Source: Amycolatopsis lexingtonensis
GTDB lineage: Bacteria > Actinomycetota > Actinomycetes > Mycobacteriales > Pseudonocardiaceae
Length of the DNA stretch: 64,000 bases
NCBI RefSeq assembly: GCF_014873755.1
Contig: NZ_JADBEG010000001.1
Location: 5,749,501 to 5,813,500 of the forward strand
Reading direction: 5' to 3'
Shown: positions 14,503 to 22,287 of the stretch, piece after piece
Numbering within the stretch: the stretch's first letter is position 1
How the letters are laid out: each line of letters starts with the position of its first letter
Notes under the pieces: model-generated
Told to the model about the DNA's origin: nothing
The model's input: only the letters and a program-made list of their open reading frames with translations
Databases searched by the model: none
Made by a program: the position numbers and the translations under genes

Positions 14503-15780
14503 TTAACGGTGCCGCCGCCCGTGCGCGGCCGCCGCTCCGCCGCCGAGCACCAGGATCAGGGCGGTCAGGCCCCAGCGGCGTTTCTCCTGGGTCCGCTGCC
14601 CGGTGTCGTCGACCACGGGTTCCGGTTTCTCGGTCGGCCGCGCGTGCGGTGTCGTCGGCGGCGGCTGTTCCGGTGCCGGGGTCGACGCCCGGGGCCGGAC
14701 CACCGGCGCCGGAGCGGGTGTCGGCGTCGGAGCCGGAGCGGCGGGCTGCTCGACCGGGGGTGGTTGCGACGGCGGCGGCGGTTCCGGCGCCGGAGTGGTC
14801 GGTGACGGTGTCGTCGGGGGCGGGGCCGGTGTCGTGGACGTGGCCGGCGGGGGTGACTCCGGGGACGACGTCGTGGGCGGCGGGGGCGGTGGTGGCGGTG
14901 GTGGCGGTGCTTCGGCGAAGCAGCCGGCCGCGTCCCCGCTCACCAGCACCGGCCCGGTCGCGACCTCGACCGCCGGGCCCGAGCCGTCGCGCGGCAGCCG
15001 GTAGGTGACGCTGCGCTGCCCGTCGCGGTTGGCTGTGGCGTAGATCGCTCCGGGCCCGAGCACGACCGACCCGTACGCACCGCCCTGGGGGAACCGCAGC
15101 CCGGGGACCGGCACGACCTTCCCGGTGGCCGGGTCCAGCGTGACGACCGAGGTGCCGCCGCGCGACGTCGTCGAGACGCCGTAGAGCAGCCCGTCCGCCG
15201 GGTCGTAGGCGAAGTCGTCGACGCCGACGGCCAGCGAGACCGGCCGCAGTGGGGTCCGGTGCACCACCCGCAGGTAGTCCTGGGTCGCCGGGCTGATGTC
15301 CACTGTGTACAGATCGCTGTCCTGCCGGACGTACCAGCGGTTCCCGGCGATCGCGCCGGCGGTGGCGCCGGTGACCAGGCTCCACACCGGACGCGTCGCG
15401 CCCGCGCGGCCGATCACCCCCAGATCGGTCACGGTGCCCTGGCCGTCGATCCGGACGGCGTGCGCGCCGTGGTCGTACCGGCCGCGGCGGGTGCCGTCGG
15501 CGACGCCGTAGACGACGTCCTGCGCGGCGGAGTAACCCATCGCGTTGATCCAGTACCCGGCCTGGGTCAGGCGTTTAGTCGCGCCGCCGGGCAGTTCCAG
15601 CAGCCGCAACCTCGTCGGGGCGCCGCCGCGTTCGTTTTCCGCCTGCAGGATCGTGCAGCGGTCCGGCGCCTGGGCCACCGGCCGCCGGGACGGCGCGAGC
15701 CAGCCCGTCGCCGCCAGCAGCGCCGAGACCGCCGCGGCGACGCCGAGCATCGCCGCCCAGCGGGCTCGCGAGCCGGTCAA
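14503..15780 (-). CDS. Exported beta-propeller-like protein with Pro-rich stalk and C-terminal anchor
   Basis: 425 aa from a TTG that overlaps the upstream stop (TTGA). This start is preferred over the ATG at 15750 because it supplies the positive residues (TGSRARW) before the hydrophobic segment MLGVAAAVSALLAATG. Residues about 45-290 have repeated propeller-like strands (NAMGYSAAQDVVYGVADG, DDFAYDPADGLLYGVSTTSR, GAYGSVVLGPGAIYATANRD), as in DUF6923-type domains. Then comes a long Pro/Thr/Ser stalk with an uninterrupted run of prolines, and a C-terminal membrane segment (WGLTALILVLGGGAAAA) with a basic tail. No LPxTG sortase motif is present. It looks like a surface-exposed stalked protein. 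It is probably translationally coupled to the DUF4239 gene. Confidence 0.65.
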   Translation of the reverse strand: MTGSRARWAAMLGVAAAVSALLAATGWLAPSRRPVAQAPDRCTILQAENERGGAPTRLRLLELPGGATKRLTQAGYWINAMGYSAAQDVVYGVADGTRRGRYDHGAHAVRIDGQGTVTDLGVIGRAGATRPVWSLVTGATAGAIAGNRWYVRQDSDLYTVDISPATQDYLRVVHRTPLRPVSLAVGVDDFAYDPADGLLYGVSTTSRGGTSVVTLDPATGKVVPVPGLRFPQGGAYGSVVLGPGAIYATANRDGQRSVTYRLPRDGSGPAVEVATGPVLVSGDAAGCFAEAPPPPPPPPPPPTTSSPESPPPATSTTPAPPPTTPSPTTPAPEPPPPSQPPPVEQPAAPAPTPTPAPAPVVRPRASTPAPEQPPPTTPHARPTEKPEPVVDDTGQRTQEKRRWGLTALILVLGGGAAAAHGRRHR

Positions 15781-16541
15781 ACCAGCCGGTCCAGCACCGT
15801 CGTGAACGCCTCCGGCGACACTTTCGCCCCGCCGCTGAACGGGTTCTGCAGTTCGTGGATCGCGAAGAGCAGCAACGTGATCGTGCCGGCCAGGGTCGAC
15901 ACGATGATGACGTGCGCGGCCAGCCGGGTGCCGCCGAACAGGTTGGGCAGCAGGATCGCGGTGATCAGGCTGCCGAGGATCAGCGCGAACCAGACGACCG
16001 CGCCGACGCCGCCACCGCCGGAGTTGGCCAGCCGCTGCTGGCGGGCCTGGTAGACCGACCAGAGCTGGTTGCTCGCCTCGGTCTTGCGGTCGATTTCCCA
16101 GTCGCCGTCGACTTCGGCGGCCGCGACCGCCTGGCGCATCTGGTCGAGCTGCGTCCAGCCGGTCGCCGGGATCGCGCCGCCGTCGGCCAGGCGCGGCCAC
16201 TCCTGCTCCTCGACCGTGCGCGCGTAGGCGACGGCGAGCTGGTGCACCCGGTCCTTCGTCTCACCGGGCAGCGCGTCGGCCGCCCAGGTGGCCGCGACCA
16301 GGCTGTCGGCCTCGGTCTGCGCGTCCCGGCTCGCGGAGCCGACCGAGTCGAACAGCGAGATGAGCACGAACGCGACCAGCACGGCGTGCAGCCCGCCGAC
16401 GATGGTGAACACCTGGCCCGCGGCGTCGTTGTTGTCGGGCCGGCCTTCGTCCCAGCCGAACCGGCGGACCAGGTAGGCGATCAGGCCCCCGACCAAGGCC
16501 GCGCCGGCCACCCAGAGCGCACCGGCCACGAAGATGTTCAT
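15777..16541 (-). CDS. DUF4239-family membrane protein
   Basis: 254 aa from the ATG at 16541. Two N-terminal membrane helices (VAGALWVAGAALVGGLIAYL; VFTIVGGLHAVLVAFVLISL) flank a short loop, a soluble helical region (about 85-185) follows, then two C-terminal helices (VGAVVWFALILGSLITAILL; HVIIVSTLAGTITLLLFAIH). This 2+2 layout and the ADSLVAATW ... LPNLFG pattern match DUF4239 (bestrophin-like) proteins of unknown function. It forms a two-gene unit with the stalked protein downstream. Confidence 0.75.
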   Translation of the reverse strand: MNIFVAGALWVAGAALVGGLIAYLVRRFGWDEGRPDNNDAAGQVFTIVGGLHAVLVAFVLISLFDSVGSASRDAQTEADSLVAATWAADALPGETKDRVHQLAVAYARTVEEQEWPRLADGGAIPATGWTQLDQMRQAVAAAEVDGDWEIDRKTEASNQLWSVYQARQQRLANSGGGGVGAVVWFALILGSLITAILLPNLFGGTRLAAHVIIVSTLAGTITLLLFAIHELQNPFSGGAKVSPEAFTTVLDRLV

Positions 16542-16951
16542 CCACGTCCTTTCCCCACCGGGGTTTTCCACCACCGGAGCCGCCCAAGTTAGTCACACGT
16601 TTACGGCCCGACAACCGTACATTGTTCGATTCATCCGGGTGGCCTCACCCTGGCCCGGTTTGTCGCCGATTCGGCCCAGTTCGCACCTCCCGGACCGCGG
16701 CGTTCACTGCGCCCGGCAACCGGCATTTCCCCTTACGAGCTGGGCACTTCCCGACCGGGTGACGGCCGCACACCCGGGGTGACCAAGCCTCCGCCGCCGG
16801 GTGGCGGAAATGGCGAAGCCCGCCGCGTCAATCGACCCCGGTGACCCGATCGTGGCATTGTGCGGTGGCACGGCGTTGCTATGTTGATTTCGCGACTTTC
16901 GCTTGACCGCGCGAATTTGGCTCCGACGCGAATGATGGGTGGTTTTTCGTT
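16542..16951 (+). promoter_or_regulatory. Intergenic region with candidate promoter of the encapsulin operon
   Basis: No gene is visible in these 410 bases. The best promoter candidate for the encapsulin operon is TTGTGC (16858-16863), 16 bases, TATGTT (16880-16885), about 70 bases before the GTG at 16952. The segment 16870-16950 is more AT-rich than its surroundings. The ribosome-binding site is weak (GGGTGG). The opposite end should hold the DUF4239 promoter but no convincing hexamers were found. Confidence 0.35.
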
Positions 16952-18355
16952 GTGACTGTCACCGACCCGGTGGAATCCGAGCAGGCACCCCTGAGCCTGG
17001 GCCGGGCCGCCGCCCGCACACTGGCGACGACAACCAAGTCCGTCCCCCAGATGCAAGGCATCTCCACCCGCTGGCTGCTCAAAGCCCTCCCCTGGGTCGA
17101 CGTCGCCGCCGGCTCCTACCGCGTCAACCGCCGCCTCTCCTACTCCGTCGGCGACGGCCGCGTCACCTTCACCACCACCGGCGCCACCGTCCGCGTCATC
17201 CCACCCGAACTCGGCGAACTCGCCCCCCTACGCGGCTACGACAACGAAGACGTCCTCACCGAACTCGCCGGCCGGTTCACCCAGCAGCACTACGACCCCG
17301 GCGACGCCCTCGTCGAATTCGGCTCCCCCGCCGACCAGGTCTTCCTCATCGCCCACGGCAAAATCACCAAAACCGGCACCGGCGCCTACGGCGACCACAC
17401 CGTCCTGGGCACCCTCGCCGACGGCGACCACTTCGGCGAAACCACCCTCACCCACACCGACGGCATCTGGGAATTCACCGCCAAAGCCGTCACCGCCTGC
17501 ACCGTCCTCACCCTCCCCCGCGCCGCCTTCGACGACGTCCTCACCCGCGCCGAAACCCTGCAAGCCCACCTGGAGTCCTACCGGGCACGGGGGTCGGCGG
17601 CCAGCAACGACCACGGCGAAGCCGAAATCTCCCTCGCCTCCGGCCACGACGGCGAACCCCACCTGCCCGGCACCTTCGTCGACTACGACACCCAACCCCG
17701 CGAATACGAACTCTCCGTCGCCCAAACCGTCCTGCGCGTGCACTCCCGCGTCGCGGACCTCTACAACCAGCCGATGAACCAGATCGAACAACAACTCCGC
17801 CTCACCGTCGAAGCCCTCCGCGAACGCCAAGAGCACGAGCTGGTCAACAACACCGACTTCGGGCTGCTGCACAACGCCGACTTCGCCCAGCGCATCCCCA
17901 CCCGCACCGGCCCACCCACCCCCGACGACCTCGACGAACTGCTCACCCTGGTCTGGAAAGACCCCGGGTTCTTCCTCGCCCACCCCGCCACCATCGCCGC
18001 GTTCGGCCGCGAATGCACCAAAGCCGGCATCTACCCCGCCTCCGTCGACCTGGGCGGGCACCAGGTCCCCGCCTGGCGCGGGGTCCCGATCCTGCCCTGC
18101 AACAAGATCCCGGTCTCGGACACCCGTACCAGCTCGATCATGCTGATGCGCACCGGGGAGCAGGCCCAGGGTGTGGTCGGGCTGCACCAGACCGGGTTGC
18201 CGGATGAGTACCAGCCGGGGCTGAACGTGCGGTTCATGGGCATCAGCGAGCAGGCCATCATCTCCTACCTGGTCTCGGCCTACTACTCCGCCGCGGTGCT
18301 GGTCCCGGACGCGCTGGCGGTGCTGGAAAGCGTCGAACTCGGCCGGGAGAGCTGA
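16952..18355 (+). CDS. Family 2B encapsulin shell protein, first copy
   Basis: 467 aa from GTG. The N-terminal arm contains [20 protein letters not shown] and [11 protein letters not shown], hallmarks of family 2 encapsulins. Residues about 85-210 are the inserted cyclic-nucleotide-binding-like domain ([35 protein letters not shown]). The HK97-fold shell domain resumes at about 240 ([79 protein letters not shown]). Family 2B shells self-assemble into icosahedral compartments around terpenoid enzymes. The phosphate-binding cassette keeps Gly162-Glu163 but lacks the usual Pro-Arg-Ala. The second shell gene follows after 2 bases. Confidence 0.93.
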
Positions 18356-18357
18356 CC

Positions 18358-19746
18358 GTGACCCTCACCGACGAACCGTCGGTGCAGCTGTCCCTCGGGG
18401 TTGCCGCGGCGCGGACCCTGGCCACCACCACCAAAACCCGCCCGCAGATGCGGAGCATCACCCCCCGCTGGCTGCTCTCGCAGCTGCCGTGGGTCGAGGT
18501 TCCCGCGGGGAGTTACCGTGTCAACCGGCGCCTGACCTACACCCTCGGTGACGGGAAACTCTCCTTCTACACCACCGGCACCCGCGTCCACGTCGTGCCC
18601 GCCGAACTCACCGAACTCGCCCTCCTGCGCCACTTCAGCGACGAGGCCGCGTTGGGGGCGCTGGCGGAGGCGTTCGAGCAACGCGAATACGACCCCGGCG
18701 CGACCCTGTTCACCGAGGGCAGCCCGCTGGACATGGTGGTGCTGATCGCGCACGGGAAAGTCACCCGTCACCGCACCGGCCCCTACGGCGACGAGGCCGT
18801 CCTGTCCACCGCCACCGACGGCGACCACCTCGGCGCCGACCTCCTCACCCGTGACGACGCCACCTGGGACTTCACCGCCCGCGCCGCCACCCGCGTCATC
18901 GCACTGGTGTTGCCCGCCCCGGTGTATGCGCGGCTCAACGGGCGGCTGGAATCGTTGCGCACCCACGTCGCCGAAGCAGCTACCCGGCCGCGGAAGCCGC
19001 AGAACACCAAAGGCGAAGCCAGCATCGACCTGACCGCCGGGCACGACGGGGAACCGCTGCTGGCCGGGACCTACGTCGACTACGACCCCGCACCCAGGGA
19101 GTACGAGCTAGCGGTCGCGCAGACCGTCCTGCATGTCCACAACCGGGTCACCGACCTCTACAACCAGCCGCACAACCAGCTCGAGCAACAACTTCGGCTG
19201 ACGGTGGAAGCGTTGCGGGAACGCCAGGAACACGACCTGATCAACAACACCGACTTCGGGCTCCTGCACAACGCCGGACTCAAACACCGACTCACCACCC
19301 GCAGCGGCCCACCGACACCGCTGGACATGGACGATCTGCTGTGCCGGCGGCGGAAAACCAAGTTCTTCCTCGCCCATCCGCGGGCGATCGCCGCGTTCGG
19401 GCGGGCCTGCACCGCCCACCGGGTCTATCCGGACACCGCCGTGCTGGACGGGAAACGCGTGAACGCCTGGCGCGGGGTGCCGATCCTGCCCTGCGACAAG
19501 ATCCCCGTCACCGACACCGGAACCACCTCGATCCTCGCGATGCGCACCGGGGAAGACGACGCCGGGGTGATCGGGTTGCGGCCCAAGGAACTCCCCGACC
19601 AGCACCAGCCCGGGTTGAACGTGCGGCTGATGGGGACCGGCGACCGTGCCGTGACCTCCTACCTCGTCTCCGCCTACCACTCCGCCGCCGTGCTCGTCCC
19701 CGACGCGCTCGGCGTGCTCGACGACGTGGAGGTCGGGCTCGCATGA
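18358..19746 (+). CDS. Family 2B encapsulin shell protein, second copy
   Basis: 462 aa from GTG, 2 bases after the first shell gene. It is a clear paralogue with the same domain order: arm ([20 protein letters not shown]), nucleotide-binding-like insert (about 80-210, [20 protein letters not shown]), linker, and shell domain ([63 protein letters not shown]). The nucleotide-binding cassette is more eroded than in copy one: GDHLGADLL has Ala160 in place of the conserved Glu. Tight coupling suggests both subunits are made in a fixed ratio for a mixed shell. Its stop overlaps the synthase start (ATGA). Two separate single-component shells remain possible. Confidence 0.93.
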
Positions 19747-20753
19747 CGACGATGGACGCACGTACCGCGGCCCGTCCCCTCGCCGACGTCCTCGCGTGGA
19801 GCAAGGGGCTGGTCGACCCGGCGCTGCGCGCCACCGCGGACCGGCTGCCGGAGGTGATGCGGCGCGTGGCCGGCTACCACTTCGGCTGGTGGGACGCCCA
19901 GGGCACGCCGTCGGTGGCGGACGGCGGCAAGGCACTGCGGCCCGCGCTGGTCCTGCTGTGCGCGGAGGCGGCGGGCGGCGATCCGGCGGACGCCCTGCCC
20001 GCGGCCGTCGCGGTGGAGCTCGTGCACAACTTTTCGCTGCTGCACGACGACATCATGGACGGCGACACGACCCGCCGTCACCGCCCGACGGCGTGGACGG
20101 TGTTCGGCACCGGCCCCGCGGTGCTCGCCGGGGACGCGTTGCTGAGCCTGGCGTTCGAGGAACTCACCCCCGACGGCGCGAAGCTGCTGTCCCAGGGCGT
20201 ACTCGCGCTGTTGGAAGGCCAGGCCGCCGATCTGGACTTCGAGCAGCGCGACGACGTGACGCCCCCGGAGTGCGTCCGGATGGCCACCGGCAAGACGGCG
20301 GCCCTGATCGGCGCGGCCTGCGAACTCGGCGCCCACCACGGCACCCGGGCCCCGGACCCGTTCGGCGCGTTCGGCCGCGCGGTCGGCCTGGCGTTCCAGC
20401 ACGTCGACGACCTGCTCGGCATTTGGGGCGACCCCGCCGAAACGGGCAAGCCGGTGTACTCGGACCTGCAGAACCGCAAGAAGTCCCTCCCGGTGGTGAC
20501 GGCCCTGTCGTCGGGCACCGAGGCGGGTGCGGAACTGGCGTCCCTCTACGACGGCACGGATCCCTTGGACGACGCGGCCCTGACCCGCGCGGCTTCGCTG
20601 GTGGAGTCCGCGGGCGGCCGCCAGTGGAGCCAGGCCCAGGCGTCGGCGCTGGTGGCGAAGGGACTTCGGGAGCTGGCATCGGTCAACCCGGTCCCCCGCC
20701 CGGCGGCGGAGCTGGCCGCACTGGCGCGGCTGATCACGACCCGGACGCACTGA
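19743..20753 (+). CDS. Polyprenyl diphosphate synthase, likely encapsulin cargo
   Basis: 336 aa. All prenyl-elongating motifs are present: GGKALRP (61-67), first Asp-rich motif DDIMD (102-106) followed by [10 protein letters not shown], and second motif DDLLGIWGD (222-230). Phe97, five residues before the first motif, is the position where a bulky residue limits chain length, so a short product such as FPP or GGPP is inferred. It condenses IPP with allylic diphosphates. The start overlaps the second shell stop by 4 bases, giving strong translational coupling. Polyprenyl transferases are a known cargo class of family 2B shells. The N-terminus ([20 protein letters not shown]) is short, with no long disordered loading segment. 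Confidence 0.93.
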
Positions 20754-20935: not shown

Positions 20936-22060
20936 TCACTTGCCCGGGCGGGTCAAGCCGTCCTTGTCCGCGGCCAAGCTCAGGATGTTCTTGTCCGTGT
21001 CCGACAGAGCCTTCGTGACCTGCGCCGATACCGGAGCAGTCGACAAGTCGACCAGCCGGATCGGATCGTCCAGCTTGATCAACGTAGGCACATACTCCGC
21101 CTTGTCGACCTTCCACCGATCCCCGTCACGCACGAACCGGAACCGCGCCGCCGCCCCCTCCTCGGTGTCGCCGCGAGGCTCGGAATGCCGGGCGATGCTG
21201 TTGCCCAGCCCATAAGCCACCCACTTGTCGCCGAGCTTCTCGAACGGCTGGACCACGTGGGCGTGGTGACCGATGATCAAGTCGACGTCGTCCGACGCCA
21301 GGATCTTCTTGGCCTGCGACCGCTGCTCCGCCGTCGGCTCGTGCTGGTACTCGACACCCCAGTGCAGGCTCGCGATCACGACCTGCGCCCCCGCCTCGCG
21401 CGCCTTGCGCGCCGCCGACAGGACGTCGTCCACGTCGATCTGGTTGGCCAACCACGGCTTGCCGGCCGGGACCTTGATGCCGTTGAAGCCGAAGGCGTAC
21501 GACACCTGCGCCACCTTGACGCCGTGGACGTCCATGATCAGCGGTTTCGCCGCTTCCGCCGCCGACCGCGCCGAGCCGGTGTGCTTGATGCCGGTGGCGT
21601 CGAGCTTGTCCAGCGTCCGCTTCACCCCGTCGGCGCCCTGGTCGATCGTGTGGTTGGACGACGTCGAGCACGTGTCGTAGCCGGTGTCCTTGAGCGCGTC
21701 CGCTATCTCCGGCGGCGCGCTGAACGACGGATACCCGCTGTAGGGCCCGCCTTCCGGCGCCAGCGGCGTCTCGAGGTGGCAGATCCCGAGGTCGGCGCCG
21801 GAGATCAGCGGCTTGATCCCGGCCAGCAGCGGCCGGTAGTCGATCTTGCCGCCGCCGTCGGCCTGTGCCTGCTCGGTCAGCGCCGGGTGGATCAGGACGT
21901 CGCCGGTCGCGACGACGCTGAACGAACCGTCCGGGGCCGCGGCCGACGATGACGCCGTCTCCGGGAACGGTGTCGGGGCCGGGCCGGATTGCGGCGGGCT
22001 GCTGCAGCCGGCCACCAGGACGGCGAGCCCGGCGAGCGCGGCGACGCGGTGCTTCGTCAT
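20936..22060 (-). CDS. CapA/PgsA-like metallophosphoesterase lipoprotein
   Basis: 374 aa from the ATG at 22060, which has an AGGAGGGGACCG ribosome-binding site. The signal peptide ends in lipobox VLVAGC. The body is a CapA (calcineurin-like) domain: FSVVATGDVLIHPALTEQAQ, GADLGICHLETPLAPEGGPY, DTCSTSSNHTIDQGADGVKR, VVIASLHWGVEYQHEPTAEQ and IIGHHAHVVQPFEKLGDKWV. In Bacillus, CapA homologues take part in poly-gamma-glutamate capsule handling; in actinobacteria the role is unsettled and no capB/capC genes are here. It is divergent from the sugar transport operon. Confidence 0.88.
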   Translation of the reverse strand: MTKHRVAALAGLAVLVAGCSSPPQSGPAPTPFPETASSSAAAPDGSFSVVATGDVLIHPALTEQAQADGGGKIDYRPLLAGIKPLISGADLGICHLETPLAPEGGPYSGYPSFSAPPEIADALKDTGYDTCSTSSNHTIDQGADGVKRTLDKLDATGIKHTGSARSAAEAAKPLIMDVHGVKVAQVSYAFGFNGIKVPAGKPWLANQIDVDDVLSAARKAREAGAQVVIASLHWGVEYQHEPTAEQRSQAKKILASDDVDLIIGHHAHVVQPFEKLGDKWVAYGLGNSIARHSEPRGDTEEGAAARFRFVRDGDRWKVDKAEYVPTLIKLDDPIRLVDLSTAPVSAQVTKALSDTDKNILSLAADKDGLTRPGK

Positions 22061-22287
22061 CGGTCCCCTCCTGATGTCGTCCGGCCATCCTGCCAGCCGG
22101 GCGAAACCGGCAGAGACGGCATCCCGGTCATCGACAACTCCCACCACAGTCGACAACACCGATCAGAACATTCGCACAGGACAAAACCGGACAACGCGCA
22201 GCCCAGCAGGGAAAAAATACGATAAATGACCCCTGCTAATGCCACGATGCAACTACGGAGAGTAGGTCTCGCTCCGCTAACTGCGCC

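Follow-up and report, generated by a model that had tools for sequence, protein, structure and literature searches.

Family 2B encapsulin operons often contain two shell genes whose products are about 60% identical, and the 2021 survey that reported this, with 900 prenyl-synthase operons and 165 with both a cyclase and a prenyl synthase, raised two-component shells as a possibility (PMC8346489). In 2025, 503 two-component operons were counted, the prenyl-synthase type included, and experiments with the Streptomyces lydicus proteins showed that Enc1 alone does not form shells, that Enc2 does, and that the two co-assemble with an irregular tiling (PMC12407261). Encapsulin prenyl synthases have been described with an N-terminal extension of 50-100 residues (PMC8346489) and are regarded as putative cargo (PMC8346489, PMC12407261). 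We have analysed an operon of this type, Enc1-Enc2-prenyl synthase, in a window of 64,000 nt of the genome of the soil actinomycete Amycolatopsis lexingtonensis (NZ_JADBEG010000001.1, positions 5,749,501-5,813,500), together with a second, almost identical shell pair of the same genome. A mixed two-subunit shell encoded beside a prenyl synthase is a sound proposal and is already published (PMC8346489, PMC12407261). Near-identical duplicate shell pairs combined with unlinked cargo were not found in the literature listings searched, which covered open-licence PubMed Central papers; this is no proof of absence.

The window shell proteins compared with described systems

Both shell proteins of the window operon belong to Family 2B, as the original prediction had claimed. 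They matched the SrpI-like HK97 shell domain PF19307 (462 bits for Enc1 and 423 bits for Enc2, Pfam cut-off 22.8) and the NCBIfam model NF041163, 'family 2B encapsulin shell protein' (778 and 700 bits, cut-off 400), and a cNMP-binding-like domain (PF00027, Pfam) lies within each of them. Two-component Family 2B systems are recognized by two 2B shell genes within 10 kb, each of at least 400 aa (PMC12407261), and two such genes, with products 60% identical to each other, were found in the window; the Family 2B shell definition also includes a T=1 shell of about 28 nm. The best PDB match of Enc1 was S. lydicus Enc1 (9BJE, 655 bits), with S. lydicus Enc2 (9BIX) close behind at 649 bits, and that of Enc2 was 9BIX (572 bits), so that the best match of each window protein is its S. 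lydicus counterpart, by a narrow margin for Enc1. The order of an upstream TVWK-type Enc1 and a downstream RRRK-type Enc2 (diagnostic motif 1) is present in the window operon, and diagnostic motif 2, in the luminal loop, compared by eye, is like that of S. lydicus Enc1 in Enc1, the likeness of Enc2 being less clear. The presence of both S. lydicus motifs supports the shell of two subunit types that had been predicted, and the gene coordinates confirm the predicted layout, the shell genes being 2 bases apart and the synthase start overlapping the Enc2 stop by 4 bases (ATGA). By analogy with S. lydicus, the two window proteins most likely assemble together, giving a single mixed T=1 shell. The possibility that the locus derives from a phage was rejected on account of the strong NF041163 matches of both shells and the conserved chromosomal context.

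The S. lydicus system (Sl-Enc1/Sl-Enc2, PDB 9BJE/9BIX; PMC12407261) resembles the window operon in its adjacent 2B genes with Enc1 first, in the VWK and RRRK motifs and in protein length. It differs in being of the xylulose-kinase type, whereas the window operon is of the prenyl-synthase type and has a second near-identical pair; furthermore, co-assembly was shown on the S. lydicus proteins and is a prediction for those of the window. The PT and TC/PT operons of Family 2B (PMC8346489, PMC12407261) share with the window the order Enc1-(cyclase)-Enc2-prenyl synthase and a shell identity of about 60%, but in the window no cyclase lies between Enc1 and Enc2, motif-bearing cyclases are encoded elsewhere in the genome, and the synthase lacks the described N-terminal extension. 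The 2-methylisoborneol operons flanked by two cnb genes, including that of A. mediterranei U32 (PMC3072421), resemble the second locus described below, which likewise contains a methyltransferase, a cyclase and two cnb-like shell genes; that paper treats cnb as likely regulators, and the passages compared here make no mention of a prenyl synthase or of another near-identical pair of cnb genes. More than one shell paralogue per container is also found in bacterial microcompartments and in phage T4 (gp23/gp24; PMC12407261). Microcompartments have another fold, and in T4 the positions are fixed. We know of no homogenised duplicate gene sets for microcompartments or for gp23/gp24.

A second, nearly identical shell pair in the same genome

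The A. lexingtonensis genome is a single contig of 10.74 Mb with four shell genes, the window pair and a pair at C1:494457-497204 (locus L013), 5.27 Mb from the window operon. Aligned over 2804 columns, the two pairs show 99.39% identity, with 16 mismatches and one gap; the match begins 16 bases 5' of Enc1 and ends 8 bases short of the end of Enc2. The cargo genes that adjoin the two pairs are unrelated to each other. L013 has the order methyltransferase-cyclase-Enc1-Enc2; its methyltransferase is a geranyl diphosphate 2-C-methyltransferase (NF041943, 520 bits, cut-off 400) and its cyclase an encapsulin-cargo terpene cyclase of the 2-methylisoborneol type (NF041167, 483 bits, cut-off 400), a gene content that points to a 2-methylisoborneol pathway locus. 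The second pair is not an assembly artefact: its flanks differ from those of the window pair and the genome is one contig, and a similar pattern was observed in G003, G084 and G089, which are assembled in one or two contigs.

Near-identical shell copies recur in Amycolatopsis

We then considered a sample of 80 Amycolatopsis genomes, the window's genome being G000; NF041163 matched above cut-off in 75 of them. Annotation covered 107 loci (the window, L013 and L044-L148, among which L088 is from another family), and shell matches of at least 400 residues, including L088 and two broken genes, were typed by motif 1. The 175 typed genes comprised 90 of the Enc1 type, 80 of the Enc2 type and 5 others. 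In the 76 two-gene loci the first gene was always of the Enc1 type, and the second was of the Enc2 type in 74.

Nineteen genomes have at least two full-length Enc1 loci, and in 11 of these the copies within the genome were 98.6-100% identical at the DNA level, compared with 86.6-94.7% for the best Enc1 match in any other genome. In G085 and G088 the copies lie at contig ends and their identity is possibly an assembly effect, one collapsed sequence being reported repeatedly; when these two genomes are excluded, near-identical Enc1 copies are present in 9 of 17 genomes. G021, the copies of which were 79.6% alike as against 79.2% to any other genome, was not counted as homogenised. Enc2 copies were closer to each other within a genome (94.0-99.2%) than to any other genome in five of eight genomes. 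Twelve of the genomes in a DNA tree of 45 of the 91 Enc1 sequences combine a synthase locus with a methyltransferase-cyclase-Enc1 locus. Their two copies were sisters in 11 of them, or in 9 of 10 once the contig-end genomes are left out, and only G071 showed the orthologue pattern. Constraining ten cyclase-locus Enc1 copies to one clade was rejected (log-likelihood lower by 2343; approximately unbiased test, p-AU 0.00012). The idea that cyclase loci of this type always go with homogenised shells was also rejected, G071 being contrary.

A bestrophin-like gene, a PGA_cap gene and the gene of a presumed substrate-binding protein flank the synthase locus; these neighbours recur in the genomes compared, with 91-98% identity in G003, G005 and G084. 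Those of the cyclase locus (a multicopper oxidase, a glucuronyl esterase and a gene resembling NAD-epimerase) are 94-95% identical in G003, and two of the three are found in G084 and one in G005; the cyclase loci of G025, G085 and G088 retain the multicopper oxidase. The age and orthology of both loci are therefore well supported for some genomes only. The homogenised tract corresponds to the shell genes in G000, G003, G005 and G084. In G025 and G099, which carry a second copy of Enc1 only, it coincides with that gene; it extends somewhat beyond Enc1 in G062 and G076, and G089 has two separate matching stretches, one for each shell gene. Differences were unevenly distributed along the pair in G005 (14 vs 82), G084 (2 vs 21) and G003 (2 vs 14), and the distribution in G000 (6 vs 12) was not significantly uneven.

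Synonymous divergence (dS) within genomes was 0-0.05 for Enc1 and 0.016-0.19 for Enc2, compared with 0.10-0.21 and 0.35-0.56, respectively, for the compared pairs between genomes, and the Enc2/Enc1 ratio was about 3 to 8 within a genome and about 2 to 5 between genomes. Across the 36 pairs formed by nine dual-locus genomes, Enc1 dS ranged from 0.096 to 0.71 with a median of 0.23; the synthase, the cyclase and the methyltransferase had medians of 0.44, 0.28 and 0.24. The simplest reading of these near-identical copies is recurrent gene conversion. Alternatively, the pair may have been copied into one locus and then converted, because a syntenic cyclase locus without shells is present in G027 (neighbours conserved on both sides) and in G091 (on one side).

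Two side observations were made on these genes. The lower synonymous divergence between species of Enc1 relative to Enc2 hints at interspecies recombination or at codon constraint on Enc1. In addition, contigs end in or beside the shell genes or the adjoining cyclase in 11 of the 80 assemblies (G068, G069, G072, G083, G085, G088, G082, G023, G017, G097 and G102), which is the pattern expected if identical shell copies collapse during assembly.

Enc1 and Enc2 are retained together

Retention was counted in 73 genomes: 48 with a single locus, 20 with two loci and 5 that were set aside; the seven others (G017, G061, G068, G069, G072, G083 and G097) gave no full-length shell gene. Open Enc1 and Enc2 genes were present in 47 of the 48 single-locus genomes. 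G074 is the exception: its Enc1 is unusual, with internal segments repeated within one 609-aa open frame (L118, 7403-9157), and its cyclase locus (L119) contains shell remnants only. All 20 dual-locus genomes have kept at least one full Enc1-Enc2 pair; nine of them have an Enc1-only locus, always with Enc2 at another locus, two have an extra Enc2-like single shell, and three have a broken copy (G000 at L013, G035 and G077). The co-conservation of the two shells that had been put forward as a check is thus observed, neither copy being sporadic, and the decay of one shell was not seen in the single-locus genomes.

Shell genes are not always linked to the same enzymes

The enzymes in question are widespread in the genus: a methyltransferase scoring above cut-off is present in 69 of the 80 genomes, and the synthase and the geosmin-type two-domain cyclase were each detected in 78 at E <= 1e-100, the latter passing the strict cut-off in only 3. 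Linkage was scored in the 69 genomes that were left when the 11 with shells cut by contig ends were excluded, and a gene was considered to be beside the shells when it lay within the fetched stretch of about 5-9 kb. Shells were only beside the methyltransferase-cyclase genes, with the synthase elsewhere, in 24 genomes, and only beside the synthase, with the methyltransferase-cyclase genes elsewhere, in 15 (including G074). Nineteen genomes had shells at both; this class includes G006 and G015, although the synthase next to their extra shell is only distantly related (about 50% identity). One genome had no shells, and the remaining ten are considered below.

Linked forms were also observed. L088 has the order Enc1-Enc2-synthase-methyltransferase-cyclase; L097 has the same order but is partly decayed, with a broken Enc2 and a shortened synthase; L180 has the order shell-cyclase-methyltransferase-synthase. 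A gene like the geosmin-type cyclase was detected in 20 of the 80 named synthase loci (E <= 1e-100) and in 6 of the 107 annotated loci (E <= 1e-60), where it lies between Enc1 and Enc2 in G021 and G077. In five other genomes of the same family (G443, G295, G394, G287 and G424), the sole shell pair is beside the synthase and a methyltransferase-cyclase locus without shells carries the motif described below (GLGTAAAR in G424); in the last four, a geosmin-type-like cyclase gene lies between the two shells.

Two other arrangements were noted in passing. In G013, a prenyl synthase-cyclase-methyltransferase cluster (L284, 3692-6825) contains neither shells nor motif. In G006 and G015, a divergent single shell with the motif RRRN (L052 and L064) lies beside a gene like a two-domain cyclase and the distant prenyl synthase; this is perhaps a separate single-shell system, both genomes also having an Enc1-Enc2 pair.

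The putative cargo motif is found in cyclases encoded elsewhere

PF19086 detects three terpene-cyclase genes in the window's genome, two of which carry the published putative cargo motif GLGTSAAR. One is the 2-methylisoborneol-type cyclase of L013, the N-terminus of which carries GPFGLGTSAAR, and the other is a geosmin-type cyclase encoded about 205 kb from the window operon, with the motif between its two domains; the label geosmin-type rests on the two cyclase domains and on the motif positions given in PMC8346489. In these cyclases GLGTSAAR lies outside the catalytic domains. A degenerate DNA pattern of the motif had two matches in the genome, exactly the two motif-bearing cyclases. Among 14 Amycolatopsis cyclases without a shell gene in the stretch fetched around them, 13 carry the motif G[LI]GTSA(AR), two of them reading only to GIGTS or GIGTSA. 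The original prediction had held, from the lack of an adjacent cyclase, that the end product would be the prenyl diphosphate itself, a claim that finds no support in a genome with two motif-bearing cyclases elsewhere. Given the genome-level arrangement, with unlinked cargo and duplicate shell pairs, prenyl diphosphate need not be the end product and, judging from these genes, is unlikely to be.

By eye, the N-arms of the shell proteins (the N-termini of the window Enc1 and Enc2) resemble the cyclase motif LG..AAR at the N-terminus of the L013 cyclase, GPFGLGTSAARIAT. This visual comparison suggests that the N-arm of the shell might mimic the loading peptide.

The window synthase protein contains a polyprenyl_synt domain (187 bits, Pfam), and its best NCBIfam match is NF041169, 'encapsulin cargo polyprenyl transferase', whose cut-off of 450 it narrowly misses with 447 bits; 70 of the 80 genomes of the genus have a member over cut-off. 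Its second Asp-rich motif, DDLLG, lacks the usual last Asp, as in 51 of 53 relatives. GLGTSAAR was rejected as a feature of the synthase: it is absent from the window protein and from all 80 named synthase loci, the search there covering the first 35 residues together with the upstream frame. By eye, a disordered N-terminal domain of 50-100 residues was not seen in the window synthase, and only about 13 residues precede the stretch conserved in the compared relatives. Loading of the window synthase into the shell is therefore doubtful, because the motif is missing from the protein and from the examined N-terminal region of its 80 named relatives, and because the protein starts close to its conserved part.

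A proposed shared shell pool and its alternatives

The reading to which we give somewhat better than even chances is that the two loci feed one shared pool of mixed shells. Enc1 and Enc2 from either locus would enter the same T=1 shell, and recurrent gene conversion would keep the window and L013 pairs alike; the pool would then not be private to the neighbouring synthase, the window pair being one of two near-identical sources. The synthase would supply short prenyl diphosphates, geranyl diphosphate (GPP) or farnesyl diphosphate (FPP), and the GLGTSAAR-bearing cyclases of the 2-methylisoborneol and geosmin types, encoded elsewhere, would be loaded in trans into these mixed shells and make the end products. 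This reading leans on the linkage patterns no less than on gene conversion. Gene content, motifs, near-identical copies, linkage patterns and part of the synteny are observed; the conversion process, co-assembly of the two window proteins, loading in trans, precursor supply and end products are inferred. The wider proposal of one mixed nanocompartment as a common chassis, with pairs kept interchangeable by gene conversion, cyclases for 2-methylisoborneol and geosmin acting in trans and the synthase as the common precursor supplier, is more tentative, and we put it at a little below even.

Several observations weigh against this shared pool. Sharing is not universal, as eight of the 19 genomes have Enc1 copies with an identity of only 76.7-81.4%. 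The three cyclase-locus neighbours were absent from the fetched stretch in G062, G076, G089 and G099. In ten of the 69 genomes the shells adjoin the synthase and no methyltransferase scores above cut-off. The motif, besides being missing from the synthase regions examined, was seen in 24 of the 30 top-scoring geosmin-type loci from 78 genomes and not in the other 6, and the reversed control pattern had one match in the genome, so that counting motif matches is weak evidence on its own. Divergence is uneven along the pair, yet this argues only weakly for piecemeal conversion, since comparisons between species also show faster divergence of Enc2 than of Enc1. At L013, Enc1 has one extra C in a run (7 instead of 6) about 270 bases into the gene, which shifts the frame after about 92 codons; this may reflect phase variation, decay or a sequencing error, and hence a locus that is decaying or was mis-sequenced. 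Finally, gene conversion may be the neutral result of long near-identical repeats, and the shell-less cyclases could work unencapsulated.

A rival that we consider rather unlikely, yet more probable than the others, is that the near-identical pairs result from recent independent duplications or from purely neutral gene conversion with no functional meaning, the loci working independently. Long repeats readily undergo conversion in bacteria, the pair could have been copied into a cyclase locus like the shell-less orthologous ones of G027 and G091, and both the missing cyclase-locus neighbours of four genomes and the diverged copies kept in eight are in line with it. However, both loci share their respective neighbours in G000, G003 and G084, and partly in G005, and independent fresh insertions at the same site would therefore be needed; the uneven differences in G003, G005 and G084 also speak weakly against it, with the reservation that Enc2 evolves faster, and neutral conversion leaves the shell-less motif-bearing cyclases unexplained. 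It is unlikely, but plausible, that the real cargo of the shared shells is the cyclases, with the synthase remaining outside, only feeding precursor, and linked to the shell genes for co-expression. This would agree with the position of GLGTSAAR outside the catalytic domains of the cyclases, with the lack of motif and extension in the synthase and with its separation from the shells in 24 genomes; it conflicts with the treatment of such synthases as putative cargo in PMC8346489 and PMC12407261, with the naming of NF041169 as cargo, and with the Enc2-synthase neighbourhood, which recurs across genera in the named loci.

A self-contained compartment, in which the shell would house only the adjacent synthase and export prenyl diphosphate while the second operon built its own 2-methylisoborneol shell, appears improbable. 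Products of pairs that are 99.4% identical could hardly sort apart, Enc1-only loci would yield no shell alone if Enc1 behaves as in S. lydicus, the synthase is away from any shell gene in the 24 genomes mentioned, and it has no known loading signal. These points outweigh for us the tightness of the operon with its 4-base overlap, the Enc1-Enc2-synthase order in 39 of the 80 named loci, some of which also hold a geosmin-type gene, and the ten genomes with synthase-linked shells and no methyltransferase. That Enc1 and Enc2 form two separate homomeric shells was left open in PMC8346489; we regard it as very improbable, since S. lydicus Enc1 forms no shell alone and co-assembles with Enc2 (PMC12407261), and since Enc1-only loci were found, in the genomes counted, only where another locus holds Enc2.

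The shared-pool reading makes a clear prediction for the contents of native particles. Encapsulin cargo is mostly assigned by gene neighbourhood, and operon-based cargo lists would be incomplete if shells are shared across unlinked loci; some 'prenyl-synthase compartments' may then be geosmin or 2-methylisoborneol compartments. These two molecules are major earthy odour compounds, the production site of which is of practical interest. The near-identical duplicates provide an argument from genetics, independent of biochemistry, that shell subunits encoded at separate loci may need to stay compatible, and the natural linkage variants, with shells beside the synthase, the cyclase or both, are ready material for testing which enzymes need the shell.

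Gene layout of the window operon

Positions in Table 1 are those within the 64,000-nt window. The identified flanking genes on either side (15777-16574 and 20936-22159) both run on the minus strand, and the operon is therefore taken to consist of three genes only, Enc1, Enc2 and the prenyl synthase.

Table 1. Features of the shell-synthase operon of A. lexingtonensis.
Feature	Position	Strand	Remarks
Stretch 99.39% identical to the L013 shell pair	16936..19738	+	Pairwise alignment; reverse strand at L013
Enc1, Family 2B encapsulin shell protein, 467 aa	16952..18355	+	GTG start, TGA stop; PF19307, NF041163
cNMP-binding-like insert of Enc1, residues 112-198	17285..17545	+	PF00027, 57.5 bits
Diagnostic motif 1 of Enc1, LVWK (TVWK in S. 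lydicus Enc1)	17948..17959	+	Motif definition from PMC12407261
Shine-Dalgarno-like GGGAG ahead of Enc2 start	18345..18349	+	By eye
Enc2, Family 2B encapsulin shell protein, 462 aa	18358..19746	+	GTG start, TGA stop; PF19307, NF041163
cNMP-binding-like insert of Enc2, residues 109-189	18682..18924	+	PF00027, 46.1 bits
Diagnostic motif 1 of Enc2, RRRK	19345..19356	+	Motif definition from PMC12407261
Shine-Dalgarno-like GGAGG ahead of prenyl synthase start	19728..19732	+	By eye
trans-Prenyl diphosphate synthase, 336 aa, Asp-rich motifs DDIMD (first) and DDLLG (second)	19743..20753	+	ATG start

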